Assembly: GCF_023101665.1 (NCBI RefSeq)
Contig: NZ_CP082161.1
Coordinates: 310,001-374,000 of the forward strand
Direction of reading: 5' to 3'
From: Bradyrhizobium sp. 195
GTDB lineage: Bacteria; Pseudomonadota; Alphaproteobacteria; Rhizobiales; Xanthobacteraceae
DNA length: 64,000 nucleotides
The notes under the pieces: generated by a model
Databases searched by the model: none
The model's input: only the letters and a program-made list of their open reading frames with translations
What the model was told of the DNA's origin: nothing
In this document: positions 9,107 to 37,745 of the stretch, piece by piece
How positions within the stretch are numbered: the first letter of the stretch is position 1
How the letters are laid out: each line of letters opens with the position of its first letter
Position numbers and translations under genes: made by a program

Positions 9107-9112
9107 GGCATC

Positions 9113-9206: not shown

Positions 9207-9211
9207 AAACC

Positions 9212-10720: not shown

Positions 10721-10724
10721 GCGA

Positions 10725-11210: not shown

Positions 11211-11230
11211 ATGAAGCACCTCTCGACCAC

Positions 11231-11333
11231 CGTCACCCTGAGGTGGCCGCTTCTTGGCGGCCCTCGAAGGGCGGCGGTGCCCCGATCCATCCTTCGAGGC
11301 GAGCCGCAAGCGCGGCTCGCACCTCAGGCTGAC
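11231..11333. repeat. palindromic repeat between tctC and tctB
   Basis: The outer arms are cgtcaccctgaggtg and cacctcaggctgacg, with an inner pair ccctcgaagggcgg / atccttcgaggcgagcc. This is another alphaproteobacterial intergenic repeat type, seen once in this window. Because it sits inside an apparent operon, it may stabilise the 3' end of the tctC message and uncouple its level from tctBA. Confidence 0.7.
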
Positions 11334-11365
11334 GCCAACATGTTTGGCGATACGACTCTACTCTT

Positions 11366-12343
11366 TCACTTCTTCGCCAGCCCGAGGCTGTCGATCACCT
11401 TGCGTTCGGACTCCGTGACTTCGACGACGAACTTCTTGTAGTCCTCGGTGTTCTTGTAATTCGGCACCATGTCGTATTTGGCGAGCGTTGCCACGACGGC
11501 CGGGTCCTCGACCGCCTTCTTGAAGGCATCGTGCAGCTTGGCGACGATCTTCGGATCGAGGCCCTTCGGCCCGGCGATGCCGAACGGGGAGTCATAGACC
11601 ATGGGATAACCGAGCTCTTTCAGCGTCGGCGCGTCGGGATAGTTCGGCGAGCGTGAGCCGGTCCACACCATCAACAGCCGCAGCTTGCCGGCATCGACCA
11701 GCGGTCGCCATCCCGTGGAGTCCGCCTGAAGCATCGTGTGTTGTCCCAGCACCGCAGCGTTTGTCTCCGCGCCGCCCTTGAAAGGGACTTGCGTCAGCTT
11801 GATGCCGGACATCCCGGCGATCTGCTCCATGCCGATATGCAGCGATGTGCCGGCGCCCGGCGTGGCGTAGGTCACCTTGCCCGGGTTCGCCTTCGCGAAC
11901 TCCACCACGTCCTTCCAGCTCTTGAACTGCGACTCTGCGCTGGTGGTCACACCGAAGGTGTAGCCGGTGAGGTGGATGATGTAGGTAAAGTCCTTTGCAG
12001 GATCCCACGACACTTCCTGCATCAAGGGCAGACGGAAGACAGTGATCGGAATCTGTGAAATGGTGTAGCCGTCCGGCTTCGCCGCCGCTGCCATGGTCGC
12101 CGGTCCCACCGTGCCGCCGCCGCCGGCCTTGTTGTCGATCACGATCGGCTGCCCCAGCACCTTCGCGGCGCTGTCGGCGATGGCGCGCATCGAGATATCG
12201 GTCGACCCACCGGCCGGCCAGGGCACGATCAGCGTGATCGGCTTGGTGGGATAATCCTGCGCACTGGCGGCAGTCGGGAGCAATGCGCCCATGACAGTAT
12301 GCATCGCGGCAAATGCGATCGTCTTCAGCCCGTATCGCGACAT
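11366..12343 (-). CDS. tctC: tripartite tricarboxylate transporter, periplasmic binding protein
   Basis: A 325-residue secreted solute-binding protein of the Bug/TctC family. A signal peptide ends near AASAQDYP. The family opening YPTKPITLIVPWPAGGSTDISMRAIA is followed by GQPIVIDNKAGGGGTVG and by PDGYTI. Its second half carries TPGAGTSLHIGMEQIAGMSGIKLTQVPFKGG, the ligand-carboxylate pinch region. The start is supported by GGGAGGAA 7 bases upstream. It is first in the tctCBA unit. Ligand: unknown carboxylate. Confidence 0.93.
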   Translation of the reverse strand: MSRYGLKTIAFAAMHTVMGALLPTAASAQDYPTKPITLIVPWPAGGSTDISMRAIADSAAKVLGQPIVIDNKAGGGGTVGPATMAAAAKPDGYTISQIPITVFRLPLMQEVSWDPAKDFTYIIHLTGYTFGVTTSAESQFKSWKDVVEFAKANPGKVTYATPGAGTSLHIGMEQIAGMSGIKLTQVPFKGGAETNAAVLGQHTMLQADSTGWRPLVDAGKLRLLMVWTGSRSPNYPDAPTLKELGYPMVYDSPFGIAGPKGLDPKIVAKLHDAFKKAVEDPAVVATLAKYDMVPNYKNTEDYKKFVVEVTESERKVIDSLGLAKK

Positions 12344-12546
12344 CGAAATTCCTCCCTCGCGGCAGCCTCCTCGGACCGCCGTTTTCGTTCTTGTGAGGTG
12401 ATTGTTCCCGAAATCACGGGAGAAGAAAAGCGCCATTGCGCGTCTGCAGGGCAGGGGCGAGATGCCAATCCGCCGGAAACGATGCGTGCGACAATTCGTC
12501 GTTTGAAAGCGTGCCGAGATACGGAATTTAAGGGAGCCGAAGCGCG

Positions 12547-15414
12547 CTACGCCACGCGCCGGACCGTGTTCAGCGTCTCGATGGTGCGGCCGACCTCCGA
12601 TGCGGGGCACGGCTTGCCGAAATAATAGCCTTGTACGGCGGTGCAGCCACATTCGCGGACGAAGTCGAGTTGCTCCTCGGTCTCCACACCCTCCGCCGTC
12701 GTCTCGACGCCGAGCACGGAACCGAGGCTTGCGATGGTGCGGACGATGGCCACGCTCTCCGGGCTTTCGCCAAGCGTGCCGACGAAGGAGCGGTCGATCT
12801 TGATGCGGTCGAATGGAAATTTGCGCAGATAGCTCAGCGAGGAATAGCCGACGCCGAAATCGTCGAGGCTGACGGGTACTCCCAGCGCTCGGAGCTGGTG
12901 CAGGATTTCGATCGTTGCCTCGCTGTCGTCGAGCAGCGCCGTCTCGGTGACCTCGAGCTCGAGCCGCTGCGGCGGCAGGCCAGCCTCCGCAAGGGCGCTC
13001 GTGACCATCGCCACCAGCCCGCGCGAGCGGAATTGCACCGGCGACAGGTTCACTGCGATGGCGACATTGGGCCAGGACGCGGCGGTCGCACAGGCGCTGC
13101 GCAGCACCCATTCGCCGATCGGAACGATCAGGCCGTTCTCTTCCGCGATGGGAATGAACTCAGCCGGCGAGACGAAGCCCCGGGAGGGATGTTTCCAGCG
13201 CAGCAGCGCCTCGAACCCGGTGAGCTCGGACGAATCGAGCCGCATCTGCGGCTGAAACACCAGATGGAATTCGCGCGCCTCCAGCGCGCCGCGCAGATCG
13301 TGCTCCAGCGCGTGCCGGCGGCGCGCCTCTTCCTCCATCTCGGGTTCGAACAGCTGATAGGCGCCGCGCCCCTTGGCCTTGGCCTGGTACAGCGCGAGGT
13401 CGGCGCATTTCATCAACTCGTCGGCATCGAGCCCGTGGTCGGGCGCGATCGCGATGCCGACGGAGACGCCGACATGGATCGACTGGCTCCCCAGCGGTGG
13501 CGAGTGGCCGATGATTTCGACCAGGCGCCGGGCCAGCTTCTCGGCCGATTGCGGCTGCGGTCCGCGCTGGAGCACGGCGAACTCGTCGCCGCCGAGGCGT
13601 GCGACGGTGTCGTGCTCGCCGACATTCTCCTTCAGACGCGCTGCGACCCAGCGCAGCAGCCGGTCGCCGGCGGCATGCCCGAGGCGGTCGTTGACGGTCT
13701 TGAAATTGTCGAGGTCGAAGCACAGCACGGCCATCGCGCCGCCGGCGATCGCGACCTGGTTCAGCCCCTCGCCCATCTTCTCGCGGAACAGCGTGCGGTT
13801 GGGCAGGTCGGTCAACGAATCGTGCCGCGCCATGTGCGCGACGCGGGCCTGGGCCTTGTGGCGCTCGGTGACGTCCTCGTAGGTGACGACCCAGCCGCCA
13901 TGCTCCATCCGCTTGTGATTGAGCTTGATGATGCGGCCATCGCTCAAATGGCGGTGCAGCGTATGCTCGCCCTCGCGCAGCCGCTCGACGTAGTCAGCAT
14001 AGAGTCGTGCGGCCGTGGTGTTCTGATGGATGCCGAGCTCGCAGCTGTGCTCCATGATCTCTCGCATCGAGATGCCGGGCTTCACGATATCAGGCGACAG
14101 GCCGTACATCTCGATGTAGCGGCGGTTGCAGACGATCACGCGCAGGCTCGAATCGAGCATGCACAGGCCCTGGCTCATGTTGTTCAGCGCCGCATCGAAG
14201 CGGCGATACTGCTCGCTCAGCTCCTCGATCGCGTGTTCCCGCTCGGTGATATCCTCATAGGTGGCGACGAAGCCGCCCTCGGCCAGTGCGCAATAGCGGA
14301 CCGAGATCACGGTGCTGTTGGACATGCGCCGGCGCATCGGCGAGGAATCGCGGTTCGCAATTCTCTCGCTGGCGGCTTCCAGAAGCTGTTGGGGGCTGTA
14401 TTCCGAAGCAAAAGCGCCGTTCGCCATCGACCGCTCGATCAGCTCGGAGAGATGTGTCCCGGGCCTGGTCTCTTGCGGCGATAGCCGGAAGATCTCGCGA
14501 TAGGTAGTGTTGCAGACGCGCAGGCGCATATCGCTGTCGTAGAAGGCGAGCCCGTGCGCCATGTTCTCCAGCGCCGCATCGAGGATGAGGTTCTGCTGCC
14601 TCAGTGTCTCCTCGTATTGCAGCCGCTCTGTGACGTCCTCGTGCACGGTCACCCAGCCGCCATCGGGCAGGAAGCGGGAGACCGCCTGTACCATGCGCCC
14701 GTCATAACGCATCACCAGCAGGGATTTCGCCTTTCTGGCGCGCACGTCCTCCAACCTGGAGTTCTGGAATTCGTCGGCCGGCATGCCCGGCAAATTGCCG
14801 CGCGACATCCAATGGTCGATCACCGTGGAATGCGAGACCCCGGGCCGCACGATCTCGGGGTCGAGATTGTAGAGGTTCAGGAAACGTTCGTTGCAGACGA
14901 CGACGCGGCTGTCGGCATCGTACATGATGAGGCCGTGCGACATGTTGGAGAGCGCGTGCTGGCTGCGCTCGGTCTGCACGCGCAATTCCGCCTCGAGCCG
15001 GGCGAGGCGGCTGACATCGTCGCAGATCGTCATCCAGCCGCCTCCGGGAAGCGGCTTCAGCTCGAGCGACATGACGAGGCCGGTCGCAAGCCGCTGCTCG
15101 GTCCGGAACGGCTTTCCCCCTGCGATCTGCGCGATCCGTGCCGAATACAGCGCGTCGAGCTCGCTTTCCGGAAAGTTGCCGCGCCCGGCACTGTGCGCGA
15201 GCACCTCGCGGTAACTCGTGCCCACTCGCACGATGTCGGCCGACATGTCGAACAGCGCCAGGTAACTCTGGTTGATCAGCACGATCCGGTTGTCGGCATC
15301 GTAGACGCAGACGCCCTGCTCCATGTGGTCGAGCGCAAGCTGGCTCAGCGCGACCAGGGCCTCCGGGCCCTGCTCGCGGCGTGCACCAAGCTCGTTGTCG
15401 CGGGTCGACGTCAT
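12547..15414 (-). CDS. four-PAS GGDEF-EAL c-di-GMP turnover protein
   Basis: A 955-residue, apparently soluble protein. It has four tandem PAS domains (about residues 20-140, 150-270, 285-405 and 410-530), each with a 'GL..YD.d.R..vCN' core and ending in a '(E)DVTER'-type linker. A GGDEF domain with intact motif (near 608-612, RLGGDEFAVL) and an EAL domain with intact motif (near 735, GFEALLRW; also NLSP, DDFGVGYSS and AEGVE) follow. Both cyclase and phosphodiesterase activities are therefore possible. The PAS repeats suggest sensing of a cofactor or redox signal. The start is uncertain: ATG at 15414 (chosen) or an in-frame GTG at 15468; neither has a strong ribosome site. Confidence 0.9.
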   Translation of the reverse strand: MTSTRDNELGARREQGPEALVALSQLALDHMEQGVCVYDADNRIVLINQSYLALFDMSADIVRVGTSYREVLAHSAGRGNFPESELDALYSARIAQIAGGKPFRTEQRLATGLVMSLELKPLPGGGWMTICDDVSRLARLEAELRVQTERSQHALSNMSHGLIMYDADSRVVVCNERFLNLYNLDPEIVRPGVSHSTVIDHWMSRGNLPGMPADEFQNSRLEDVRARKAKSLLVMRYDGRMVQAVSRFLPDGGWVTVHEDVTERLQYEETLRQQNLILDAALENMAHGLAFYDSDMRLRVCNTTYREIFRLSPQETRPGTHLSELIERSMANGAFASEYSPQQLLEAASERIANRDSSPMRRRMSNSTVISVRYCALAEGGFVATYEDITEREHAIEELSEQYRRFDAALNNMSQGLCMLDSSLRVIVCNRRYIEMYGLSPDIVKPGISMREIMEHSCELGIHQNTTAARLYADYVERLREGEHTLHRHLSDGRIIKLNHKRMEHGGWVVTYEDVTERHKAQARVAHMARHDSLTDLPNRTLFREKMGEGLNQVAIAGGAMAVLCFDLDNFKTVNDRLGHAAGDRLLRWVAARLKENVGEHDTVARLGGDEFAVLQRGPQPQSAEKLARRLVEIIGHSPPLGSQSIHVGVSVGIAIAPDHGLDADELMKCADLALYQAKAKGRGAYQLFEPEMEEEARRRHALEHDLRGALEAREFHLVFQPQMRLDSSELTGFEALLRWKHPSRGFVSPAEFIPIAEENGLIVPIGEWVLRSACATAASWPNVAIAVNLSPVQFRSRGLVAMVTSALAEAGLPPQRLELEVTETALLDDSEATIEILHQLRALGVPVSLDDFGVGYSSLSYLRKFPFDRIKIDRSFVGTLGESPESVAIVRTIASLGSVLGVETTAEGVETEEQLDFVRECGCTAVQGYYFGKPCPASEVGRTIETLNTVRRVA

Positions 15415-25330: not shown

Positions 25331-26257
25331 TCACGAATTCCGTCTCGTTGCATTCGTCGCAATTGCCGCGGCTGCCGTCCGGTTCTCCACCCCGAGCTTG
25401 GCGTAGATCTGCTCCAGATGCTTGTCGACCGTGCGCGGGCTCAAACCCAGGATCTGCGCGATGTCGCGGTTGGTCTTGCCCTTGCTGAGCCAGGCCAACA
25501 CCTCGCCTTCACGGGTGGTGAGGCCGAGCTCGCTGGTGAATTCGGGGGGTAGTGCGGTGCCGGACTCCCGGGAGAGCCGCAGCAGAAACTCGTTCGGCGC
25601 CGTTTCGCCCATGTAATAGAGCCGCAGTTGCGGATTCTCGGGCAGGGAGGCCGCAGGAGATTTCGCGCTGCCCTTGGCCTTGGCCTGCTCCAGCCATTGC
25701 AGCAGTGACGGCGACAGGACGAAGTCGTCGGCCTGTGCGCCCTGATGGTCGGACATCAGCTTCTGCGCCTGCGGCGTCGCCCATAGCACGTTGCCTTGGC
25801 GGTTGACCGCGAACAGGAAGCGGCCGGAGACGTCGAGCGCTGCGCGCGCACTCTGTGTCAGCCGGGCATTGCCGAGATGGACGCGGATGCGCGCCAGCAT
25901 CTCCTCGATCACGATGGGTTTTGTCACGTAGTCGACGCCGCCGGCCTCGAGCCCGCGAACGATATGCTCGGTTTCGGCAAGGCCCGTCATGAAGATCACG
26001 GGCACATTGGCAAGATCCGCATCGCGCTTGAGACGACGGCAGGTCTCGAAGCCGTCGATGCCGGGCATCACGGCGTCAAGCAGGACGATGTCGGGCGTAA
26101 TTTGGTCGATGATGCGCATCGCCGCCGCGCCGTCGAGCGCCACCATCACCGTCATGCCGGCGCCGTCGAGCGCGTCGGTCAGCAGCCGAAGCGTTTCGGG
26201 AGAGTCATCCACAACGAGCGCGACGTCGCGCTTCTTCGACTCAATGCTCATGCGCAT
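25331..26257 (-). CDS. LuxR-family response regulator, partner of the permease-kinase
   Basis: A 308-residue two-component regulator. Residues about 10-128 are a receiver domain (VVDDSPE acidic pair, phospho-Asp in VLLDAVMPG, Thr in FMTG, Lys in VTKPI). Residues about 135-225 are a PAS-like linker (SGRFLFAVNRQGNVLWATPQAQKLM). Residues 240-303 are a LuxR helix-turn-helix (LTTREGEVLAWLSKGKTNRDIAQILGLSPRTVDKHLEQIYAKLGV). It overlaps the 3' end of the hybrid kinase by about 17 bases, so the two are translationally coupled and very likely cognate. The probable target is the divergent amide/urea transport operon. An ATG at 26251 is an alternative start. Confidence 0.92.
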   Translation of the reverse strand: MRMSIESKKRDVALVVDDSPETLRLLTDALDGAGMTVMVALDGAAAMRIIDQITPDIVLLDAVMPGIDGFETCRRLKRDADLANVPVIFMTGLAETEHIVRGLEAGGVDYVTKPIVIEEMLARIRVHLGNARLTQSARAALDVSGRFLFAVNRQGNVLWATPQAQKLMSDHQGAQADDFVLSPSLLQWLEQAKAKGSAKSPAASLPENPQLRLYYMGETAPNEFLLRLSRESGTALPPEFTSELGLTTREGEVLAWLSKGKTNRDIAQILGLSPRTVDKHLEQIYAKLGVENRTAAAAIATNATRRNS

Positions 26258-29200
26258 GCAATGTCTTCAATGTGTTCATGTACTGGTCGAGATCGAAGCG
26301 GTCGACTAGCGACCGCATTTGCGCGACGAAGTCGGCATGCTCCGGATGCTCGTTGCCGATCTCGTCCAGCTTCAACTGGATGCCCTTGACGTAGCCGATT
26401 TGGCCGAGCCCGATCAGCGCCTCGATGTGTCGCACCGGCGGCCTCGATCCGCTCTCCGGTCGCCAGAATGGCACCGCGATTTCGTCCGAACCATATTGCC
26501 ACTCGATCTTGAGGAGCTGGCGGATCGTCTCCAGCAGCCGCGGGATGTCGATCGGCTTCATCAGATAGCCGTCATGGAAAGGCTGCGCCAGCGGGGTGCC
26601 GTGAGCCTCCAACGCGCTCGCCGAGACCATCAGGATGCGCGCCTGGTGATGGCCGCTCGCGCGCAAGGCCTCCGCGACGGCCCAGCCATCCATGGCGGGC
26701 ATCGAGATATCGAGCAGGAACAGATCGGGCCGGCAATGTTGCGCCAGCGCGAGGCAGCCGGGCCCGTCGGGGGCGCTGAGCAGGATGAAGCCGAGCGGGG
26801 TCAGCACCTCGCGCAGCAGGTCGCGGTGAACGGGATCGTCGTCGGTGATGAGGATGGTCTTGCGCGCGCCGTGATAGCCGGAGACCGGGGCCTCCACCGG
26901 CGCGATGCGCTGGGGATTGGTCACCTCCGACAGCAGGATCTTGACCTTGAACGTGCTGCCGGAGCCGACCTTGCTCAAGACCTTGATATCGCCGCCCATC
27001 ACGCCGGCGAGTAGGCGGCTGATGGTCAGGCCGAGCCCGGTGCCGGTCTGCGGCTGCGAGACACCGAGCGCACCGCGCTCGAAGGGCGCGAAAATGCGCT
27101 CGAGATCGTCGCTCTGGATGCCCGGACCGGTATCGATCACCTCGAACTCGGCGACGGGACTGCGATAGTGCACCACGAACTGCACGCTGCCGGTCTGGGT
27201 GAACTTGATGGCGTTCGAGAGCAAATTGATCAGCACCTGACGCAGCCGCTTCTCATCGGCATAGACCACGACCGGCAAATGCGGAGGCCGCCGGAACACG
27301 AAGTCGATGCCCTTGGCGGCGGCCTGAAGCCGGAACATGCCGACGAGCTGGTCGAGAAATTCGCTGAGGCGCACCTCATCGCGCGACAGATACAGCCGCC
27401 CCGCCTCGATCTTGGAGATGTCCAGAATGCCGTCGATCAGGCCGGAGAGGTGGTCGGCGCTGCGGCGGACGACGCGGACCTGGTCGCGCGGCTTGGTGCT
27501 CAGTGTCGCGTCCTGCTCGAGCAGTTGCGCATAGCCGCTGATCGCATTCAGCGGCGAGCGCAGCTCGTGGCTCAGGCCCACCACGTAGCGGCTCTTGGCG
27601 AGGTTTGCCGATTCGGCAACCTCCTTGGCACGCTGGAGCTCGGCGTCGGTGCGCTTGTGGGCGTCGATCTCCTGGATCAGCAGCGTGGTTTGTCGCCGCG
27701 TCTCGGCTTCGGCCGCGCGGCGGCTCTGCTGCGCCAGCACGAACAGCCAGGCCACCACGCCGATGATGATGCTGAGCGAGAAGAACACCTTCCAGAGCAC
27801 GTCGGAGACGAGCGTGTTCTCGCCGTGCACGCTCGCCGAGGTCTGCAAATAGATCAGACCCAGCACAAGCGCGACGAGGCCGGCGGAGATCACGAACACG
27901 CCGACGTAATGGCCGAGTTGCGAGTTGATCCGCGCGTAGATCGGCTGTGGCATCAACTTGCCCAGCGTCTCCGATACCTGCGCCTGGATCCGCGCGTGCG
28001 GCTTGCAGAGATCGTGGCAGCGGGCGTCGAGCGAACAGCACAAGGAGCAAATCGGCCCGGCGTAAGCGGGGCAGGAGGCCATGTCCTCCGGCTCGAACGC
28101 GTGCTCGCAGATGCAGCACTGGATCGCCGCCATGTTCTGCCAGCTTCGCTTCGGCTTGCGCGCGATGTAGTACTTGCCGCCTGTGGCCCAGGCAATCAAC
28201 GGTGCGATGAGGAAGGCAACCGCGAGCGCTATGAACGCTGACAGGGCCTTCGCGACAGGTCCGAACAGGCCGTAAAACGCGCTGATGGAGATGATGGTCG
28301 CGATTGTCATCGCGCCGACGCCGACCGGATTGACGTCGTAGAGATGCGCGCGCTTGAATTCGATCTGCTGTGGCCGCAATCCGAGCGGCTTGTTGACGAT
28401 CAGATCGGCGACCAGCGCGCCGACCCAGGCGATCGCGACGTTCGAATAGAGCGCCAGCGTCTGCTCCAGGGCCTTGTAGACACCGATCTCCATCAACAGC
28501 AGCGCCACGATGACGTTGAAGACCAGCCAGACGACACGGCCGGGATGGCTGTGGGTCAGGCGCGAGAAGAAGTTCGACCAGGCGATCGAGCCGGCATAGG
28601 CGTTGGTGACGTTGATCTTCACCTGCGACAGGATCACGAACGTGCCGGTCAAGGCCAGCGCGAGGTCAGGCTGCGATAGCACATAGCGGAACGCTTCGAG
28701 ATACATATGCGCTGGCTCGGCGGCCTCCTCGGGCGGCACCCCGTGGCTGAGCGCGAAGAAGGCGAGGAACGAGCCGGCCAGAAGTTTCAGCGCGCCGAGC
28801 ACGATCCAGCCCGGTCCCGCGCTCATCAGCGCCATCCACCAGGAGGCCCTGGAGGCGCGGCGGTCGCGCGGCAGGAAGCGCAGGAAGTCGACCTGCTCGC
28901 CGATCTGCGCCACCAGCGAAAACACCACCGAGGCCGCGACTCCGAACAGCAGCAGGTCGAAATGCCCGTTGAGATCGCCGTGCTCGCCCGAGAACTTGCG
29001 CCACTCCGTAAAGGAGTGCGGGTTGTGCCAGGCGATCGCTGCGAACGGAATGATGTGGAGCACGATCCAGAGCGGCTGCGTCCACAATTGGAAGCGGCTG
29101 ATCAGCGTGATGCCGTAGGCCACCAATGGGATGATGACGACGGCGCTGATGAGATAACCGATCGGCCGCGGAATCCCGAAGCACATCTCGAGCGCGGACG

Positions 29201-29612
29201 CGAGGATCACGGCTTCGATCGCAAAGAAGATGAAGGTGAAGGACGCGTAGATCAGCGAGGTGACGGTGGAGCCGATGTAGCCGAAGCCGGCGCCCCGCGT
29301 CAGCAGGTCGATGTCGATGCCGCATTTGGCGGCATAATAGGCGATCGGCACGCCACAGCAGAAGATGATGGTCGAGACCACCAGGATGGCGGCGGTCGCG
29401 TTGGTCACGCCATAATTCAGGGTGATGGTGCCGCCGATCGCCTCCATCGCCAGGAATGAGATCGCGCCCAGCGCCGTGTTGGCGACCCGGGCGGCGGACC
29501 AGCGGCGTGCGCTCTTCGCCGTAAAGCGCAGCGCGTAGTCTTCCAGCGTCTGGTTGGCAACCCATTGGTTGTACTGGCGCCTGACGCGGTCTATTCGCTG
29601 CCGCCCTGCCAC
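26241..29612 (-). CDS. NCS1-permease/hybrid histidine kinase fusion receptor
   Basis: A 1123-residue fusion. Residues about 20-480 are a twelve-helix NCS1 permease (purine/cytosine/allantoin/hydantoin family) with GGTITLNYGVTNATAAIL in the first part and SQVKINVTNAYAGSIAWSNFF near 330-350. Residues 499-539 are a compact cysteine cluster (nine Cys plus His), followed by two more membrane helices (about 568-588 and 608-627). A short coiled linker leads to the HisKA domain with His682 in SHELRSPLN, the ATPase domain (N-box NLLSNAIKF, DTGPG, GTGLGLTI) and a receiver with Asp968 (LLDISMP). A helical end follows. It probably senses a transported or bound nitrogen compound and phosphorylates the overlapping LuxR regulator. 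GTG start with GGAGTGGGG upstream. Analogous in design to CbrA (SLC5 transporter plus kinase). Confidence 0.93.
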   Translation of the reverse strand: MAGRQRIDRVRRQYNQWVANQTLEDYALRFTAKSARRWSAARVANTALGAISFLAMEAIGGTITLNYGVTNATAAILVVSTIIFCCGVPIAYYAAKCGIDIDLLTRGAGFGYIGSTVTSLIYASFTFIFFAIEAVILASALEMCFGIPRPIGYLISAVVIIPLVAYGITLISRFQLWTQPLWIVLHIIPFAAIAWHNPHSFTEWRKFSGEHGDLNGHFDLLLFGVAASVVFSLVAQIGEQVDFLRFLPRDRRASRASWWMALMSAGPGWIVLGALKLLAGSFLAFFALSHGVPPEEAAEPAHMYLEAFRYVLSQPDLALALTGTFVILSQVKINVTNAYAGSIAWSNFFSRLTHSHPGRVVWLVFNVIVALLLMEIGVYKALEQTLALYSNVAIAWVGALVADLIVNKPLGLRPQQIEFKRAHLYDVNPVGVGAMTIATIISISAFYGLFGPVAKALSAFIALAVAFLIAPLIAWATGGKYYIARKPKRSWQNMAAIQCCICEHAFEPEDMASCPAYAGPICSLCCSLDARCHDLCKPHARIQAQVSETLGKLMPQPIYARINSQLGHYVGVFVISAGLVALVLGLIYLQTSASVHGENTLVSDVLWKVFFSLSIIIGVVAWLFVLAQQSRRAAEAETRRQTTLLIQEIDAHKRTDAELQRAKEVAESANLAKSRYVVGLSHELRSPLNAISGYAQLLEQDATLSTKPRDQVRVVRRSADHLSGLIDGILDISKIEAGRLYLSRDEVRLSEFLDQLVGMFRLQAAAKGIDFVFRRPPHLPVVVYADEKRLRQVLINLLSNAIKFTQTGSVQFVVHYRSPVAEFEVIDTGPGIQSDDLERIFAPFERGALGVSQPQTGTGLGLTISRLLAGVMGGDIKVLSKVGSGSTFKVKILLSEVTNPQRIAPVEAPVSGYHGARKTILITDDDPVHRDLLREVLTPLGFILLSAPDGPGCLALAQHCRPDLFLLDISMPAMDGWAVAEALRASGHHQARILMVSASALEAHGTPLAQPFHDGYLMKPIDIPRLLETIRQLLKIEWQYGSDEIAVPFWRPESGSRPPVRHIEALIGLGQIGYVKGIQLKLDEIGNEHPEHADFVAQMRSLVDRFDLDQYMNTLKTLHAHEH

Positions 29613-29692
29613 TCTTTACCCCACTCCCGATACGGACCCCGAGCCCTCGCAAATTCCGTACCAAAAGCCTACGTCGGCATTTTGCGGTGCAG

Positions 29693-29722
29693 TATACGCG
29701 ATCTTGCGTATGCTTACGCTGC
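29693..29722. promoter_or_regulatory. candidate operator between the kinase gene and urtA
   Basis: In the 170-base divergent gap there are clustered, overlapping inverted half-sites: TATACGC (29693-29699), GCGTATG (29706-29712) and TACGC (29715-29719). GCGTA-tgct-TACGC is a perfect 5-bp dyad, and TATACGC/GCGTATG matches at 6 of 7. The location is right for binding by the LuxR-type regulator or for a promoter. Function is inferred only from position and symmetry. Confidence 0.4.
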
Positions 29723-29782
29723 ATAAATTCGAGCCATCCTCATCGCGCCAATTGCGTGTTCTCGAACAAAAGTGGGGTGCTC

Positions 29783-31042
29783 ATGTCGGATGAAGAAAAC
29801 AAGGGCCTGTTGTCGCCGCTCCGGCGCAAACTATTGATGGGAATGGCCGCCGTGCCTGTTATCACCATGCTGCCGCGGGCGTCATTCGCGCAGGCCCCGG
29901 CGACCTCGGCGGTCAACACCACCGGCCTTGCGGTCACCGACACCGAGGTGACGGTCGGTATCCTGCACTCGGCGACCGGCACCATGGCGATCTCCGAGAC
30001 CGGCTCGATCGAGGCCGAAAAGCTCGCCATCGAGCAGATCAACGCCGCCGGCGGCGTGCTCGGGCGCAAGATCAAGTTCATTCAGGAAGACGGCGCCTCC
30101 GACTGGCCGACCTTCGCCGAAAAGGCCAAGAAGCTGCTGGTCAACGACAAGGTCGCGGCGATCATGGGCTGCTGGACCTCGGCCTCCCGCAAGGCCGTGC
30201 TGCCGGTCATGGAGCAGTATAACGGCATGCTCTACTACCCGACCTTCTACGAAGGCCTCGAGCAGTCCAAGAACGTCATCTACACCGGCCAGGAAGCGAC
30301 CCAGCAGATTCTGGCCGGCCTGAACTGGATCGCCAAGGAGAAGGGCGCCAAAACCTTCTTCTTCATCGGCTCCGACTACATCTGGCCGCGCACCTCGAAC
30401 AAGATCGCGCGCAAGCATGTCGAGAACGTGCTGAAGGGCAAGGTCGTCGGCGAGGAATACTACGCGCTCGGCAGCACCCAGTTCAACTCGGTCATCAACA
30501 AGATCAAGCTGACCAAGCCCGACGTGATCTTCACAGACGTCGTCGGCGGATCGAACGTCGCGTTCTACAAGCAGCTCAAGGCCGCCGGCATCGACCTCTC
30601 CAAGCAGGCGCTGCTGACGATCTCGGTGACCGAAGACGAGATCGACGGCATCGGCGGCGAGAACATCGCGGGCGCCTATGCCTGCATGAAGTACTTCCAG
30701 TCGCTCGACAATGCGAACAACAAGGCCTTCTCGTCGGCATTCAAGAAGATGTGGGGCGAGAAGACGGTGATCGGAGACGTCACCCAGGCTGCCTATCTCG
30801 GCCCGTGGCTGTGGAAATTGACGGTGGAGAAGGCCGGCTCCTTCGACGTCGACAAGATCGCGGCGGCATCGCCCGGCGTCGAGTTCAAGGGAGCGCCGGA
30901 AGGCTATGTGCGCATCCACGAGAACCATCACCTCTGGTCGAAGACCCGGGTGGGGCGCGCCAAGCTCGATGGTCAGTTCGAACTGATCTACGAGACCGCC
31001 GATCTCGTCGAGCCGGATCCGTTCCCCAAGGGCTACCAGTAA
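29783..31042 (+). CDS. urtA: urea/short-chain amide ABC transporter, substrate-binding protein
   Basis: A 419-residue periplasmic binding protein of the branched-chain amino acid/urea/amide family. The signal peptide has an RR pair (SPLRRKLLMG) and ends near SFAQA. Family blocks: TVGILHSATGTMAISETG, then AAIMGCWTSASRKAVLPVMEQYNGMLYYPTFYEGLEQS, typical of UrtA/FmdD rather than LivK. The ATG at 29783 has a GTGGGGTGCTC site; upstream in-frame codons look non-coding. It heads the urtABCDE-fmdA-fmdB-amiE unit. The amidases downstream argue for amides as ligand, with urea as the alternative. Confidence 0.93.
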   Translation: MSDEENKGLLSPLRRKLLMGMAAVPVITMLPRASFAQAPATSAVNTTGLAVTDTEVTVGILHSATGTMAISETGSIEAEKLAIEQINAAGGVLGRKIKFIQEDGASDWPTFAEKAKKLLVNDKVAAIMGCWTSASRKAVLPVMEQYNGMLYYPTFYEGLEQSKNVIYTGQEATQQILAGLNWIAKEKGAKTFFFIGSDYIWPRTSNKIARKHVENVLKGKVVGEEYYALGSTQFNSVINKIKLTKPDVIFTDVVGGSNVAFYKQLKAAGIDLSKQALLTISVTEDEIDGIGGENIAGAYACMKYFQSLDNANNKAFSSAFKKMWGEKTVIGDVTQAAYLGPWLWKLTVEKAGSFDVDKIAAASPGVEFKGAPEGYVRIHENHHLWSKTRVGRAKLDGQFELIYETADLVEPDPFPKGYQ

Positions 31043-31172: not shown

Positions 31173-32099
31173 ATGTTCGGCGACTACTCGCTTGGTGATC
31201 TCGGCTCCATTTTCGTCATGCAGGGGTTTGCCGGACTGATCCTGTTCTCGGTCTATGTCCTGATGGCGCTCGGGCTTGCCATCATCTTCGGCCAGATGGG
31301 CGTCATCAACATGGCCCATGGCGAGTTCATGATCCTCGGGGCCTACGTCACCTGGATGACTTCGAATTTCTTTCAGGCTTATTTGCCCAGCCTGTTCAGC
31401 GGATATTTCTTTCTCGCGATGATCCTGGCCTTTGTCGCATCCGGCGCGCTGGGCATGCTGGTGGAATGGGCGCTGATACGGCACCTCTATAAGCGTCCGC
31501 TCGATACGCTGCTCGCCACCTGGGGCCTCAGCCTGATGCTGCAGCAGGCTTATCGCTCCGTGTTCGGTGCACGCGAAGTCGGCGTCGAGCTGCCGCAATG
31601 GATGCTGGGCTCGCTGCACGTCACTGAGAGCATCGAAGTGCCGATCAACGGCGTCTTCGTGATGTGTCTCACCGTTCTGATCACCATCTCGGTCGCCTAC
31701 GTGATGTACAAATCGCGTTGGGGCCGCCAGGTGCGCGCGGTCGTGCAGAACCGCATCATGGCCGGCGCGGTCGGCATCAACACGGAGAAGGTCGACCGCT
31801 ACACGTTCGGGCTCGGGTGCGGCATCGCCGGAATCGCCGGCAGCGCCTTCACCATGATCGGTTCCACCGGGCCGACCTCCGGGCAGCTCTACATCGTCGA
31901 TACGTTCCTGGTGGTCGTGTTCGGCGGCGCCGCGAGCCTGCTCGGCACCATCGCCTCGGCCTTCTCGATCTCGCAGACGCAATCCACCCTCGAGTTCTTC
32001 ATGTCGGGCTCGATGGCCAAGGTCCTCACGCTGCTCGCCGTTGTCGGCATCCTGATGCTGCGGCCGCAGGGTCTGTTCGCCCTCAAGGTTCGTAAATAG
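31173..32099 (+). CDS. urtB: urea/amide ABC transporter permease (LivH-like)
   Basis: A 308-residue inner-membrane permease with about eight hydrophobic segments. It has the LivH/UrtB core GLAIIFGQMGVINMAHGEFMILGAY near residue 30 and the cytoplasmic coupling region GRQVRAVVQNRIMAGAVGINTEKVDRYTFGLGCGIAGIAG near residue 190. It is the short UrtB form, without the long N-terminal periplasmic extension seen in some urea systems. A GGAGG site precedes the start. It pairs with UrtC to form the channel. Confidence 0.93.
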   Translation: MFGDYSLGDLGSIFVMQGFAGLILFSVYVLMALGLAIIFGQMGVINMAHGEFMILGAYVTWMTSNFFQAYLPSLFSGYFFLAMILAFVASGALGMLVEWALIRHLYKRPLDTLLATWGLSLMLQQAYRSVFGAREVGVELPQWMLGSLHVTESIEVPINGVFVMCLTVLITISVAYVMYKSRWGRQVRAVVQNRIMAGAVGINTEKVDRYTFGLGCGIAGIAGSAFTMIGSTGPTSGQLYIVDTFLVVVFGGAASLLGTIASAFSISQTQSTLEFFMSGSMAKVLTLLAVVGILMLRPQGLFALKVRK

Positions 32100-32116: not shown

Positions 32117-33253
32117 ATGATCAATTCACGCTTCTTCAATCGATCCGAGCTCATGGGCTTCATTGCTCTGGCCGCCGTGCTGTTCGTGATCCTGCCGCTG
32201 ACGCTGGACGTGTTCCGCCTCAATCTGGTCGCGAAATATCTGACCTACGCTTTTGTCGCGCTCGGTCTCGTGCTGTGCTGGGGCTATGGCGGCATCCTGA
32301 GCCTGGGACAGGGCGTGTTCTTCGGCCTCGGCGGCTATTGCATGGCGATGTTCCTCAAGCTCGAGGCTTCGAGCGTCGAGAACACCAAGATCCAGTCGAC
32401 ACCAGGCATCCCTGACTTCATGGACTGGAATCAGATCACGTCGCTGCCGCTGTTCTGGCAGCCGTTTCACAGCCTCACATTCACGATCCTGGCCATTATC
32501 CTGGTCCCGGGCGTCTTCGCCCTGATCATCGGCACCGCGATGTTCAAGCGTCGGGTCGGCGGCACCTATTTCGCGATCATCACCCAGGCTGTCGCCGCCA
32601 TCCTCACCATCCTGATCGTCGGTCAACAGGGCTATACCGGCGGCATCAACGGCATGACCGATTTGCGTACGCTCAGGGGTTGGGACATCCGGCCCGACCA
32701 CGCCAAGGTCATCCTGTACTTCGTCGAGGTGGTGCTGCTGTTCGCCTGCATCGGCATCGCGCAATTCATCCGCCTGACCAAGCTCGGCCGCATTCTGGTG
32801 GCGATGCGCGAACAGGAGGATCGCGTCCGCTTCTCCGGCTACAGCGTCGCCAACTTCAAGATCTTCGCCTTCTGCATGGCCGCGGTCTTCGCCGCGATCG
32901 GCGGCGCCATGTTCGCGCTCAATGTCGGTTTCATGTCGCCGTCCTTTGTCGGCATCGTGCCGTCGATCGAGATGGTGATCTACACCGCGGTCGGCGGACG
33001 GATGTCGATCTTCGGCGCGATATGGGGCGCCCTCCTGGTGAATTTCGCCAAGACCAGCCTGTCGGAATCCTTCCCGCAACTCTGGCTGTTCGGCCTCGGC
33101 GCGCTGTTCATCGCGGTCGTGCTCGCCTTCCCGAACGGTCTGTCCGGGCTCTGGGCTGACTACGTGCAGCCGCGCATCGATCGGCTGTTCGCACGCAAGG
33201 CGAAGTCGGACTGGAACGGCAATTCGGTCGCCGACGGCGCGCCGGCTGAGTGA
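32117..33253 (+). CDS. urtC: urea/amide ABC transporter permease (LivM-like)
   Basis: A 378-residue permease of the LivM/UrtC type with about nine membrane segments. The family core GYGGILSLGQGVFFGLGGYCMAMFLKLE lies near residue 55. It also has GGTYFAIITQAVAAILTILIVGQQGYTGGINGMTDL, and the coupling segment VAMREQEDRVRFSGYSVANFKIFAF. The insert between the first blocks is longer than in LivM, as usual for UrtC. It begins 17 bases after urtB. Confidence 0.93.
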   Translation: MINSRFFNRSELMGFIALAAVLFVILPLTLDVFRLNLVAKYLTYAFVALGLVLCWGYGGILSLGQGVFFGLGGYCMAMFLKLEASSVENTKIQSTPGIPDFMDWNQITSLPLFWQPFHSLTFTILAIILVPGVFALIIGTAMFKRRVGGTYFAIITQAVAAILTILIVGQQGYTGGINGMTDLRTLRGWDIRPDHAKVILYFVEVVLLFACIGIAQFIRLTKLGRILVAMREQEDRVRFSGYSVANFKIFAFCMAAVFAAIGGAMFALNVGFMSPSFVGIVPSIEMVIYTAVGGRMSIFGAIWGALLVNFAKTSLSESFPQLWLFGLGALFIAVVLAFPNGLSGLWADYVQPRIDRLFARKAKSDWNGNSVADGAPAE

Positions 33254-33263
33254 GGAGATCATC

Positions 33264-34019
<756 letters not shown>

Positions 34020-34060: not shown

Positions 34061-34212
34061 ACCTCTCCCCTTGTGGGAGAGGTCGGATCGCGCAAGCGAT
34101 CCGGGTGAGGGGTATCTGTCCGCGCATCAAGCTGCCTCCCGTATCCGCTGATGCATACCCCTCATCCGTCGCGGACTTCGTCCGCGCCACCTTTTCCCAC
34201 AAGGGGAGAAGG
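34061..34212. repeat. long palindromic repeat inserted between urtD and urtE
   Basis: Outer arms acctctccccttgtgggaga and tcccacaaggggagaagg; inner arms gcaagcgatccgggtgaggggta and tacccctcatccg. This is a widespread alphaproteobacterial intergenic element of about 150 bp, seen once in this window. It stretches the otherwise tight urt operon by more than 200 bases and would fold into a large hairpin in the message. Confidence 0.8.
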
Positions 34213-34243
34213 AAGAAGACACACCGAGCCTAGGAGCGCATCG

Positions 34244-34933
34244 ATGCTGGCAATCTCAGATCTCCACGTCGCCTACGGCCAGAGCGAGGTGCTGCACGGG
34301 CTCAATGTCAAGGTCGCGCCCAACGAGATCGTGGCGATCATGGGCCGCAACGGCATGGGCAAGACCACGCTGATGAAGTCGCTGATGGGCATTTTGCCCG
34401 CGAAGAGCGGCTCGGTATCCATGGACGGTGCCGAGCTCGGCAGCCTCAAGAGTTTTGAGCGCGTCGCCAAGGGCCTCGCCTACGTGCCGCAGGGGCGCAT
34501 GATCTTCTCCACCATGACGGTGAAGGAGAACATCGAGACCGGGCTCGTCGTATCCGGCGGGTCCGAGGTGCCCGGCGACATCTACGAATTGTTCCCGGTC
34601 CTGCTCGAGATGAAAGGCCGTCGCGGCGGCAATCTCTCCGGTGGTCAGCAGCAGCAGCTCGCCATCGCCCGTGCGCTCGCAACCAAACCCAAGGTCTTGC
34701 TGCTGGACGAGCCGACCGAAGGCATCCAGCCTTCCATTATCAAGGAAATGGCGCGCACCCTGAAGCGCATCCGCGACGAGAAGGGGCTCTCGATTGTTGT
34801 GTCCGAGCAGGTCCTGAGCTTCGCGCTCGATATCGCCGACCGCGTGCTGGTGATCGAGAACGGCGAGATCGTGCGTGACGATCCGCGCGACGCCGTCGAT
34901 GCCGCGCAGGTCTCGAAATATCTGTCCGTCTAA
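34244..34933 (+). CDS. urtE: urea/amide ABC transporter ATP-binding protein
   Basis: A 229-residue LivF-type ATPase. Walker A is GRNGMGKTTLMKSLMG, the Q-loop YVPQGRMIF, the signature LSGGQQQQLAIARAL and Walker B LLLDEPTEGIQPS. The EGIQPSII form is characteristic of UrtE. The ATG at 34244 has TAGGAG upstream. In-frame codons back to 34151 belong to the repeat and are not counted. Forms the ATPase pair with UrtD. Confidence 0.93.
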   Translation: MLAISDLHVAYGQSEVLHGLNVKVAPNEIVAIMGRNGMGKTTLMKSLMGILPAKSGSVSMDGAELGSLKSFERVAKGLAYVPQGRMIFSTMTVKENIETGLVVSGGSEVPGDIYELFPVLLEMKGRRGGNLSGGQQQQLAIARALATKPKVLLLDEPTEGIQPSIIKEMARTLKRIRDEKGLSIVVSEQVLSFALDIADRVLVIENGEIVRDDPRDAVDAAQVSKYLSV

Positions 34934-34960: not shown

Positions 34961-36190
34961 ATGCCAGAGACACTGATCAAGGTCGATCTCACCAAGTCGG
35001 CTTACGATAATGACATGGTGCACAACCGCTGGCACCCCGACATCCCGATCGTGGCGTGGGTCAATCCCGGCGACGATTTCATCATCGAGACCTATGACTG
35101 GACCGGCGGCTTCATCAAGAACAACGATTCCGCCGATGACGTGCGCGACATCGACCTGTCGATCGTACACTTCCTGTCCGGCCCGATCGGCGTCAAGGGC
35201 GCCGAGCCCGGTGATCTCCTGGTGGTCGATCTGCTCGACGTCGGCCCGATGAAAGAGAGCCTGTGGGGCTTCAATGGCTTCTTCTCGAAGCAGAACGGCG
35301 GCGGCTTCCTCACGGACCATTTCCCGCTGGCGCAGAAGTCGATTTGGGACATCAAGGGCCTCTACACTTCGTCGCGCCACGTGCCCGGCGTGAACTTCGC
35401 CGGCCTGATCCATCCCGGCCTGATCGGCTGTCTGCCCGATCCCAAGATGCTGGAGACCTGGAACAAGCGCGAGGCCGAGCTGATCTCGACCAACCCGACG
35501 CGCGTGCCTGGTTTGGCCAATCCGCCGTTCGCGCCGACCGCGCATGGCGGCCGCGCCAAGGGTGACGTCAAGGCTAAGATCGGCGCCGAAGGTGCGCGCA
35601 CCGTTCCGCCGCGCGAGCATGGCGGCAATTGCGACATCAAGGATCTCTCGCGCGGCTCGAAGATCTATTTCCCGGTCTATGTGCCGGGCGCGGGTCTGTC
35701 GATGGGCGACCTGCACTTCAGCCAGGGCGACGGCGAGATCACCTTCTGCGGCGCGATCGAGATGGCCGGCTGGCTGCATCTGAAGGTCGAGGTGATCAAG
35801 GACGGCATGGCCAAATACGGCATCAAGAATCCGATCTTCAAGCCGTCGCCGATCACGCCGAATTACAAGGACTATCTCATCTTCGAAGGCATCTCGGTCG
35901 ACGAGGCCGGCAAGCAGCACTATCTCGACGTCCACATCGCCTATCGGCAGGCCTGCCTCAATGCCATCGAGTATCTGAAGAAGTTCGGCTATTCGGGCGC
36001 GCAGGCCTATTCGATCCTCGGCACCGCGCCGTGCCAGGGCCACATCTCCGGTGTGGTCGACGTGCCCAACGCCTGCGCCACGCTGTGGCTGCCGACGGAG
36101 ATCTTCGACTTCGACGTGATGCCGTCGGCGGCAGGACCGATCAAGCATATCACCGGCGATATCCAGATGCCGATCTCGCCAGACAAATAG
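34961..36190 (+). CDS. fmdA: formamidase / acetamidase family amidase
   Basis: A 409-residue member of the FmdA/AmdA family (Methylophilus formamidase is about the same length), which hydrolyses formamide and other short amides to ammonia and acid. Visible blocks: TYDWTGG, VHFLSGPIGVKGAEPGDLLVVDLLDVG, FAGLIHPGLIGCLPD, REHGGNCDIKDLSRGSKIYFPVYVPGAGLSMGDLHFSQGDGEITFCGAIEMAG (the metal-binding H/D/E core). It starts 28 bases after urtE with a GGGGAG site, so import and hydrolysis are co-expressed. Confidence 0.93.
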   Translation: MPETLIKVDLTKSAYDNDMVHNRWHPDIPIVAWVNPGDDFIIETYDWTGGFIKNNDSADDVRDIDLSIVHFLSGPIGVKGAEPGDLLVVDLLDVGPMKESLWGFNGFFSKQNGGGFLTDHFPLAQKSIWDIKGLYTSSRHVPGVNFAGLIHPGLIGCLPDPKMLETWNKREAELISTNPTRVPGLANPPFAPTAHGGRAKGDVKAKIGAEGARTVPPREHGGNCDIKDLSRGSKIYFPVYVPGAGLSMGDLHFSQGDGEITFCGAIEMAGWLHLKVEVIKDGMAKYGIKNPIFKPSPITPNYKDYLIFEGISVDEAGKQHYLDVHIAYRQACLNAIEYLKKFGYSGAQAYSILGTAPCQGHISGVVDVPNACATLWLPTEIFDFDVMPSAAGPIKHITGDIQMPISPDK

Positions 36191-36282: not shown

Positions 36283-36660
36283 ATGCCGGTCTATGAATAT
36301 CTCTGCGACGACTGCGGTCCCTTCAAGGACTTGCGCCCGATGGCAGAATGCGACGATCCGCAAAGCTGCCCGCATTGCGAGACCATGGCGCCGCGGGTGA
36401 TCCTGACCGCACCGAATTTCTTCTGTATGCCGGCGGACAAGCGCAAGGCGCACGCCGTCAACGAGCGCAGCTCGCACGCGCCGCAGACGCTGGCGCAATA
36501 CAAGGCCTCGCACGGTCCGGGCTGTGGCTGCTGCTCCACGGGCAAGACGGTGAAGGACAAGAACTCCACTGACAGGAAGAAGCCCGCCCGGCTGATGACC
36601 AAGTCCAGGAGCGGGGCCAAGGGCTTCCCCACCGCGCGGCCCTGGATGATCAGCCACTAA
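36283..36660 (+). CDS. fmdB: FmdB-family zinc-ribbon protein
   Basis: A 125-residue protein starting [20 protein letters not shown] with CPHC downstream, the FmdB zinc ribbon (two CxxC knuckles). A second cysteine cluster GPGCGCC lies near residue 85, and the tail is basic. FmdB was first described as a regulator in the formamidase operon of Methylophilus, but its mechanism is not settled. Its place between fmdA and the amidase gene fits a regulatory or maturation role. Confidence 0.88.
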
Positions 36661-36704: not shown

Positions 36705-37745
36705 ATGCTTCACGGCGACATTTCCAGCAGCAACGACACGGTCGGCGTCGCGGTCGTCAACTACAAGATGCCCCGCCTGCATACCAAGGCCGAGGTGCTC
36801 GACAACGCCCGCAAGATCGCCGACATGCTGGTGGGCATGAAGGCCGGACTGCCCGGCATGGATCTGGTGATCTTCCCCGAATATTCCACCCAGGGCATCA
36901 TGTACGACTCCAAGGAGATGTACGAGACGGCATGCTCAGTGCCCGGTGAAGAGACTGCCATTTTCGCCGAGGCCTGTCGCAAGGCGAAGGTGTGGGGCGT
37001 GTTCTCGCTGACCGGCGAGCGCCATGAGGAGCACCCTCACAAGGCGCCCTACAACACCCTGATCCTGATGAACGACAAGGGCGAGATCGTCCAGAAGTAC
37101 CGCAAGATCATGCCGTGGGTGCCGATCGAGGGCTGGTATCCCGGCAATTGCACCTATGTCTCCGACGGCCCGAAGGGCATGAAGGTCAGCCTGATCATTT
37201 GCGACGACGGCAATTTTCCGGAGATCTGGCGTGACTGCGCAATGAAGGGCGCCGAGCTGATCGTGCGCTGCCAGGGTTACATGTACCCGGCCAAGGAGCA
37301 GCAGGTCCTGATCTCCAAGGCCATGGCGTGGGCCAACAACGTCTATGTCGCGGTCGCCAATGCCGCCGGTTTCGATGGCGTCTATTCCTATTTCGGTCAC
37401 TCCGCGATTATCGGATTCGACGGCCGCACGCTCGGTGAGTGCGGCGAGGAGGATTATGGCATCCAATACGCGCAGCTGTCGAAGCACCTGATCCGCGATG
37501 CGCGCCGCAACGGCCAGTCGCAGAACCATCTCTACAAGCTGGTCCACCGCGGCTACACCGGCATGATCAATTCCGGCGAGAGCCCGCGCGGCGTCGCGGC
37601 CTGCCCGTATGATTTCTACAAGAACTGGATCGCCGATCCCGAAGGCACTCGCGACATGGTCGAGGCTATGACCCGCTCGACGCCGGGAACTGAGGAGTGC
37701 CCGATCGACGGCATCCCGAATGGCTCGGCTCCTTCCAATTATTGA
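36705..37745 (+). CDS. amiE: aliphatic amidase (acylamide amidohydrolase)
   Basis: A 346-residue nitrilase-superfamily amidase, the same length as Pseudomonas AmiE. It hydrolyses short aliphatic amides (acetamide, propionamide) to ammonia and acid. The catalytic residues fall exactly on AmiE numbering: Glu59 (IFPEYS), Lys134 (YRKIMPW) and Cys166 ([15 protein letters not shown]). CAGGAGCG precedes the ATG. It is last in the amide operon and complements the unrelated FmdA fold. Confidence 0.95.

Follow-up and report, generated by a model that had tools for sequence, protein, structure and literature searches.

What does a sensor kinase perceive when its input half resembles a permease and the genes beside it take up and hydrolyze amides? 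The question is raised by a gene in a 64,000-nucleotide stretch of Bradyrhizobium sp. 195 (contig NZ_CP082161.1, positions 310,001 to 374,000; hereafter the window), which encodes a hybrid sensor kinase of 1123 residues with an N-terminal half related to the NCS1 permeases. Our analysis suggests that this protein is probably a receptor histidine kinase in which a repurposed NCS1-type permease serves as the input domain for short amides or urea, and that it governs the adjoining genes. At the window locus, a short-chain amide (formamide or acetamide) would be the likeliest ligand, with urea second. An initial annotation of the window had already proposed a transporter-type receptor, and this proposal is now supported, at the level of sequence, by gene context, a shared operator-like palindrome and NCS1-type binding-site residues. 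The coordinates of all features are collected in Table 1.

The kinase is encoded by a single intact open reading frame (ORF) with a GTG start codon, and its domain order is NCS1-like domain, Cys module, two transmembrane (TM) segments, HisKA, HATPase and receiver (REC) domain. With His682 within the sequence SHELRSPLN, Asp968 within LLDISMPAMDG and a linked regulator gene, it carries the sequence elements of a hybrid histidine kinase. All 65 aligned homologues keep the phospho-acceptor His, and 62 keep the REC Asp, the remaining three having a gap at that position. ORF, Pfam matches and alignment thus agree with the earlier description of an NCS1-like half fused to HisKA-HATPase-REC with both residues intact. 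The annotated joining of permease to kinase holds in that both lie in one ORF, but a segment with eight cysteines and two hydrophobic segments intervene. Because the homologues repeat the same co-linear architecture, the fusion is not a sequencing artefact. Three short variants in the survey described below (884-894 residues) lack the REC domain and have FmdA and an OmpR-type regulator nearby; in an annotated short variant from Paracoccus, formamidase and an AmiS/UreI channel adjoin the kinase. Short kinases without REC, beside a formamidase and with an OmpR-type regulator nearby, were observed at loci L150, L157, L171 and L284.

The gene for a LuxR-type response regulator overlaps the end of the kinase gene by 17 bp, and its Asp61 is conserved in all 56 clustered regulators. 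Divergent from the kinase runs the operon urtA-urtB-urtC-urtD-urtE-fmdA-(FmdB-type zinc ribbon)-amiE. The matches of UrtA, UrtB, UrtC, UrtD, UrtE, the formamidase and the aliphatic amidase to their NCBIfam models are all over cut-off, which bears out the claim that the kinase is divergent from a complete operon for amide/urea uptake and hydrolysis. Directly after amiE, on the same strand, lies a gene for an autotransporter-type protein of 1048 residues (PF03797; 37917-41063).

A neighbourhood survey had been named beforehand as a test of this association. The sensor is present in 32 of 100 genomes of the window's family and in 61 of the 398 Pseudomonadota genomes sampled (E ≤ 0.001), and 52 of these 398 genomes encode near-full-length homologues (rows at E ≤ 1e-180, window genome included). 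A scan of genome contigs gave 324 encoding stretches, and among the 80 that were kept, the nearest named homologues of the kinase belong to Bradyrhizobium. Loci were fetched for 20 of 33 places in the family and for all 45 near-full-length homologues outside it, while five further loci of the same genus were left out. Among the 68 regions fetched, 65 hold the kinase and three hold stand-alone relatives of its sensor domain (L188, L209 and L210). The survey therefore covers 66 loci, i.e., the window and 65 homologues, with up to 20 kb each and nine loci extended by 14 kb; ORFs were called by a simple script, L191 does not enter the counts of upstream regions, tree and residues, and L252, although fetched, enters none of the counts.

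Clustering of the survey genes showed that the nine most shared are the kinase, the LuxR regulator, UrtA, UrtD/E, UrtC, FmdA, UrtB, FmdB and AmiE, with urease next. By tblastn, FmdA, AmiE, an AmiF-type amidase or UreC was detected in 64 of the 66 loci, 56 of them within the initial regions and the other 8 only after the 14-kb extension. The two loci without a hydrolase, L144 and L191, lie on contigs of 12.7 and 4.8 kb. By comparison, none of 20 control regions (20 kb each, taken from arbitrary positions of 20 of the surveyed genomes) contains a query hydrolase or UrtA, so the predicted association with nitrogen-compound genes came through this test (64/66 versus 0/20). A LuxR-type regulator is found in 63 loci, the other three being the short variants; 59 of these regulators pass the thresholds used, and those of L178, L180, L200 and L207 have a shortened middle part. 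These four regulators lack the middle between REC and HTH (helix-turn-helix), and the palindrome upstream of their kinases is kept.

The nature of the hydrolase differs among loci and points to the ligand class. Forty-seven loci are amide-type and 17 are urease-type, and none is both. On the tree of the sensors, the urease label requires 4 changes, at least 3 of them forced by well-supported branches (by a quick method, with long outgroup branches). Since one and the same sensor is accompanied now by amidase and now by urease operons, and since different enzymes of the same chemistry replace one another at the locus, the ligand is likely to be a short amide or urea. Where amide-type loci encode a UrtA, it shares 68-98% identity with that of the window, whereas in urease-type loci the identity is 42% or less, or the match is below threshold. 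The window transporter is therefore better viewed as amide-type than as urease-linked, which favours formamide or acetamide over urea here; at urease-type loci, urea would be the favoured ligand. The initial annotation had offered urea, formamide, acetamide, a ureide or a hydantoin. Context, palindrome and predicted pocket residues all speak for the short amide or urea part of this list, but no ureide or hydantoin genes were seen among the recurring clusters, only part of which were annotated; cytosine, purine and hydantoin genes are absent from the ten clusters that recur in at least nine loci, the smaller clusters being partly annotated. At urease-type loci L165, L166, L172 and L173, which share the same gene order, an extra ABC-transporter-like set with Peripla_BP_6 and DUF6867 lies beyond the regulator.

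The frequent presence of an ABC transporter suggests another reading, in which the NCS1-like domain would be a scaffold that monitors liganded UrtA or the transporter itself. Certain kinases are described in a review, in the part available to us, as reading a partner transporter, and of the 66 loci 54 have UrtB and 48 have UrtA at the thresholds used. However, neither occurs in the sampled stretch of the urease loci L177, L179, L182, L193, L201, L205 and L208 or of the three short variants, the annotated short variant from Paracoccus is accompanied by AmiS/UreI instead, and the predicted pocket residues are invariant in all 65 sensors. Indirect sensing of this kind is accordingly unlikely in our estimation.

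The same pairing is found on mobile elements. The kinase occurs on 530 plasmid records, of which 342 are from Klebsiella and 307 are typed as conjugative; among the matches listed, it is often annotated as 'ATP-binding protein' or carries no name. A homologue lies on pSymB of S. meliloti 1021. Twelve plasmid regions were opened, and 11 of them hold the kinase (L255 does not); a query hydrolase was detected in 7 of these 11, and an annotated amidase is present in Shinella. On the Klebsiella plasmid (L254), the kinase is divergent from urtABCDE and an AmiF-type formamidase. Transposase genes are seen on both sides of L254, together with a second gene of acetamidase/formamidase type further on. 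On a Sphingobium plasmid, ureDABC and accessory genes come directly before the genes for kinase and regulator, and urtABCDE is encoded on the opposite strand. The plasmid loci of S. meliloti and Roseomonas contain urtA and urtB.

How the kinase may reach these genes is suggested by a palindrome located about 80 bp before the ATG of urtA. Its core, TACG-N8-CGTA, occurs once in the 64-kb window, where 0.10 occurrences are expected. The exact core is present in 38 of 65 kinase upstream regions of 450 bp, whereas 100 dinucleotide shuffles gave a mean of 0.13 and a maximum of 2; spacings other than 8 (from 0 to 19) give 0 or 1 site. Ten of the 27 loci without an exact site contain a one-mismatch palindrome (1.9 expected). 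The 11 plasmid loci lay outside the discovery set; in 7 of them, including Tistrella, an exact site occurs no more than 500 bp upstream of the kinase. The 1.32 Mb of survey loci hold 64 exact sites, 46 of them near a kinase start; the control regions contain 1 in 0.4 Mb. Among the 18 sites away from a kinase start, 7 precede a called urtA or fmdA start by 88-120 bp; at three of these loci, the kinase is 2-6 kb away from both site and urtA. Four more, at L165, L180, L200 and L207, fall inside over-long ORF calls and were read as the same place before a gene. Azospirillum oryzae carries a second site, which precedes a separate amiE (aliphatic amidase) by about 130 bp. In S. meliloti, 1.7 kb separate the site from the kinase, and the gene for a UrtA homologue (37% identity) immediately follows the site. 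The three short-variant loci, with an OmpR-type regulator, have no exact palindrome, which is consistent with the palindrome belonging to the LuxR-type regulator. We infer that this regulator binds TACG-N8-CGTA. In relatives, around the region corresponding to window positions 29670-29730, the palindrome by eye seems to be flanked by GGTGCA ... TGCACC, with a further half site TACGTC.

The claim of a 'full-length NCS1 permease' stands in part. No match of PF02133 to the window kinase or its N-terminal half was found in the Pfam scan at E ≤ 10, and a PF02133 search of its own genome gave no match at E ≤ 0.01. A sequence search of the PDB with the sensor domain alone or as a 45-member profile returned no transporter, only weak matches to other proteins. 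Two other transporter families gave no match either: SSF (PF00474) has no match to the kinase at E ≤ 10, the genome's SSF matches being located elsewhere, and the ammonium-transporter family is absent among the kinase's Pfam matches at E ≤ 10. Kinship with NCS1 emerges through an intermediate. The stand-alone protein of L188 (497 residues), the nearest such relative found in the Pseudomonadota sample, is 27% identical to the sensor domain over 485 residues (hmmsearch, E about 1e-32) and matches PF02133 at 3.6e-9, over cut-off, and TIGR00800 at 2.5e-16, yet under that model's cut-off. Against a set of 26 sequences, from which three NCS1 rows over 540 residues had been dropped, the sensor profile matched L227 at 5e-10 and L219 at 8e-7, with about half of the set above E 0.01. 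Profile-profile comparison by hhalign gave a probability of 93%, over 65 columns only. In an alignment with Mhp1 that took in 23 of 45 sensors, 18 of 25 PF02133 loci and the 3 stand-alone relatives, sensors and NCS1 members have R106-x3-F110-G111-x2-G114-S115 and D242-x2-R245-F246 in common, motifs that were read off this same alignment; R106, D242, R245, N334 and N337 are present in all 65 sensors. Averaged over 45 sequences, hydropathy indicates about 12 TM helices. The sensor domain is thus read as a remote NCS1 homologue, by way of the stand-alone intermediate and the Mhp1-type motifs. That the protein is an ordinary hybrid kinase with an unrelated membrane domain, its NCS1 resemblance being generic to multi-TM proteins, would fit the missing Pfam and PDB transporter matches and the short profile-profile match; set against the 27% identity with a protein that matches PF02133 and TIGR00800 and the two shared motifs, we regard it as very improbable.

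The relatives without a kinase also bear on function. The L188 gene stands in an operon-like row (7950-12985) with a carbon-nitrogen hydrolase, a Peripla_BP_5 protein (UrtA/AmiC-like) and an AmiR/ANTAR protein; this further argues for a short amide or urea as ligand of the sensor and makes L188 a candidate NCS1 amide permease. The more distant L210 protein adjoins hydantoinase A/B genes, while that of L209 adjoins genes of alcohol/aldehyde dehydrogenase and dienelactone-hydrolase type, with no amide link.

In the alignment, Glu133 corresponds to Q121 of Mhp1 and Phe129 to W117, and Asn is kept at N314 and N318; presumably these and the following Mhp1 positions have the substrate-pocket and sodium roles that we assign to them. 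Glu133, Asn334 and Asn337 are therefore predicted pocket residues, as far as an alignment of low identity allows. E133, K332, N334 and N337 are invariant in all 65 sensors, and Phe129 is found in 59. The sodium site of Mhp1, which we take to be A38, I41, A309, S312 and T313, is not retained: the window kinase has G49, S52, S329, K332 and I333 at these positions, so that Lys332 occupies the place of S312. Eighteen other NCS1 members also vary at the sodium-site positions. Sodium-independent LeuT-fold proteins such as ApcT and CaiT have positive residues in sodium's place. Urease- and amide-type sensors are separated at five candidate positions only (169, 270, 299, 398 and 399); as none of them is at an Mhp1 pocket site, no specificity switch is claimed.

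A Lys or Arg at the sodium-site position is found in the stand-alone relatives L188, L209 and L210 as well, suggesting that the change may precede the fusion and that Lys alone does not exclude transport. This matters for the possibility of a true transceptor, in which the NCS1-like half would also import the amide and the kinase would follow flux rather than occupancy, as argued for CbrA. The domain keeps its roughly 12 TM segments and NCS1 signature motifs, two of the three stand-alone relatives with Lys/Arg adjoin amidase- or hydantoinase-type genes, and CbrA is described, in the portion of the literature available to us, as a transporter joined to a kinase. On the other hand, uptake by the kinase would be redundant where an ABC system lies alongside, which is the case for the majority (55 of the 66 loci encode UrtA or UrtB), and the Amt-type kinase Ks-Amt5 is reported in the accessible text to have lost transport. 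A transceptor is thus possible but rather doubtful, and we prefer the repurposed permease as a receptor.

Between sensor and kinase lies a module with the spacing C-x2-C-x11-C-x7-C-x2-CC-x5-C-x3-C, whose cysteines (C499, C502, C514, C522, C525, C526, C532 and C536) are invariant in 65 of 65 homologues. It has no Pfam family match in the scans made, and a comparison with the PDB gave only weak resemblance to zinc proteins, with E above 1. If the permease has 12 TM segments with both ends inside, the module would be cytoplasmic; it is possibly a metal or redox hub. Two proteins seem to place the fusion point within it. A stand-alone protein of 573 residues on a Streptomyces chartreusis plasmid (L255, 7896-9617; 42% identical over residues 8-529) has no kinase and ends inside the module, with the first five cysteines kept and C526, C532 and C536 lost. 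Conversely, a permease-less hybrid kinase of 618 residues (L238, 7959-9815) has a Cys-rich start that resembles the second half of the module, and adjoins a LuxR-type regulator (9911-10807) 48% identical to that of the window. The same kinase gene also adjoins a gene that by eye resembles iron-type alcohol dehydrogenases.

The kinase promoter was compared in the same upstream regions. A sigma54-like element (at most 2 mismatches, GG and GC kept) reading towards the kinase is present in 22 of 65 loci, versus 2.0 in shuffles (maximum 5); in the opposite direction, 8 were counted versus 1.6. No sigma70 promoter was found in the kinase-urtA intergenic region. The sigma54-like promoters suggest nitrogen control of the kinase. 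Together with the eight invariant cysteines of the predicted cytoplasmic segment, they could indicate that the kinase senses a product or the general nitrogen state, such as ammonium, or cytoplasmic redox or metal status via the Cys module. One would not expect such a general sensor to accompany amidase and urease operons as these are repeatedly exchanged, and the kinase-less stand-alone relative retains five of the eight cysteines, which makes this explanation improbable.

Combined, these data are compatible with the following course of events for a receptor of short amides or urea. Nitrogen limitation would raise the kinase through the sigma54-type promoter. A short amide or urea at the membrane would bind in the NCS1-type central pocket formed by Glu133, Asn334 and Asn337 and, with Lys332 as a substitute for the sodium ion, occupancy alone might shift the LeuT-type cycle. 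The movement could then pass through the cytoplasmic 8-Cys module and the two extra helices to the HisKA/HATPase core, from which phosphate would reach the co-encoded LuxR-type regulator, either directly or with the fused REC as a modulator. By binding TACG-N8-CGTA before urtA, and elsewhere before fmdA or amiE, the regulator would activate uptake and hydrolysis.

Several points weigh against this interpretation. Co-location with amide genes is no proof that the NCS1 domain binds amides. The control regions span 20 kb whereas nine survey loci span about 34 kb, and related survey loci are not independent, since relatives share sites. The S. meliloti (L253), Tistrella (L280) and Roseomonas (L281) plasmid loci have no hydrolase in the stretch read, and Tistrella has no urt gene there either. 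Regarding the palindrome, the 18-bp form occurs only once in the 9.1-Mb genome, yet chance alone would give about that number, and the reversed control pattern also occurs once; 7 of the 18 sites away from a kinase start have no clear target; and the exact site is missing upstream of the kinase at seven related urease loci, L177, L193, L195, L201, L202, L205 and L208 despite their LuxR-type regulator. Finally, the low-identity pocket alignment puts Mhp1 Gly219 in a gap and leaves Trp220 unsure.

Table 1. Positions of the kinase, its domains and the neighbouring features within the window.
Feature	Position	Strand	Basis or remark
Response regulator, REC and LuxR-type HTH, 308 residues	25331..26257	-	Pfam
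Hybrid sensor kinase, 1123 residues	26241..29612	-	
Receiver domain (Response_reg), Asp968	26520..26855	-	Pfam, residues 920-1031
HATPase_c	26931..27257	-	Pfam, residues 786-894
HisKA, phospho-acceptor His682	27399..27596	-	Pfam, residues 673-738
Two additional TM segments, approximately residues 567-588 and 604-625	27738..27914	-	Mean hydropathy of 45 sequences
Cys-rich module, residues 499-536, eight cysteines	28005..28118	-	Homologue alignment
NCS1-like sensor domain, residues 1-486, E133/K332/N334/N337 invariant	28155..29612	-	Homology, alignment, hydropathy
Sigma54-like -24/-12 element TGGTACGGAATTTGCG, reading towards kinase gene	29648..29663	-	
Palindrome ATACGC-N6-GCGTAT, candidate response-regulator operator	29694..29711	.	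Core TACG-N8-CGTA 29695-29710
urtA-type (amide/urea) binding protein	29783..31042	+	Pfam, NCBIfam
urtB permease	31173..32099	+	NCBIfam
urtC permease	32117..33253	+	NCBIfam
urtD ATPase	33264..34019	+	NCBIfam
urtE ATPase	34151..34933	+	NCBIfam
fmdA formamidase	34961..36190	+	NF045496, over cut-off
FmdB-type zinc-ribbon protein	36283..36660	+	Zinc-ribbon models over cut-off
amiE aliphatic amidase	36705..37745	+	NF009802, over cut-off

Taking the parts together, we tentatively advance, at somewhat less than even confidence, a hitherto undescribed, widespread and mobile class of sodium-independent receptor kinases with Lys332 in place of sodium, an amide/urea pocket around Glu133 and Asn337, a metal-binding 8-Cys coupler at the fusion joint and a TACG-N8-CGTA regulon that has changed between amidases and urease several times. 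The family would supply a candidate regulator for formamide and urea use in many Pseudomonadota and on plasmids. Moreover, the family comes with a cognate regulator, a prediction of the ligand class, a candidate DNA site and pocket residues that can be mutated, so that the conversion of a transporter into a receptor could be tested directly in a laboratory rhizobium.

Individual parts of the system have precedents. The Fmd operon of Methylophilus methylotrophus likewise combines a formamidase with binding-protein-dependent uptake of short amides and urea, and is induced by formamide and urea; in the available text of the review, its cluster has a putative positive regulator and a kinase is not mentioned (PMC10781810). 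In Ectopseudomonas guguanensis G3, a hybrid kinase and a LuxR regulator adjoin a second urtABCDE cluster, fmdA is a direct neighbour to judge by its locus number, and the accessible part of that report identifies no sensor domain, operator or ligand (PMC13296017, 2026). Another genome paper, as far as its text was available, infers formamide uptake by such an urt cluster. The initial annotation knew of no characterised NCS1 version, and the open-access literature searched, in which texts were partly available, yielded no paper on an NCS1-kinase fusion, although subscription papers could describe a characterised member and no search for the DNA motif was made.

In comparison with NCS1 permeases of the Mhp1, CodB and PucI type, the sensor domain shares motifs, about 12 TM segments and Asn at Mhp1 N314/N318, but it is below PF02133 detection, has Glu at Q121, Lys at S312 and Ile at T313, and is fused to a kinase. 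Transporter-kinase fusions are already known for the SLC5/STAC and Amt types, according to the portions of the literature available to us. The SLC5/STAC kinases (CbrA, CrbS/MxtR and RpuS) are likewise fusions of a secondary-transporter domain with a histidine kinase; as for the window kinase, the partners of CrbS and RpuS are LuxR-type regulators, and CrbR, of the LuxR type, acts through an imperfect inverted repeat. In contrast, the sensor here is NCS1-like, an 8-Cys module and two TM segments lie between sensor and kinase, and the neighbours are amide/urea genes instead of acetate, pyruvate or histidine genes. In the ammonium sensor kinase Ks-Amt5, too, a histidine kinase is fused to a former nutrient transporter that acts as its sensor, and the nutrient is again a nitrogen source. 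As described in the accessible part of its paper, Ks-Amt5 consists of an Amt domain with DHp and CA only, and its regulator was not yet identified, whereas the present family is NCS1-like and hybrid, with a linked regulator and operon. To the few transporter-derived receptor kinases in the literature as available, of the SLC5 and Amt types, the window kinase and its homologues would thus add a third transporter family, NCS1.

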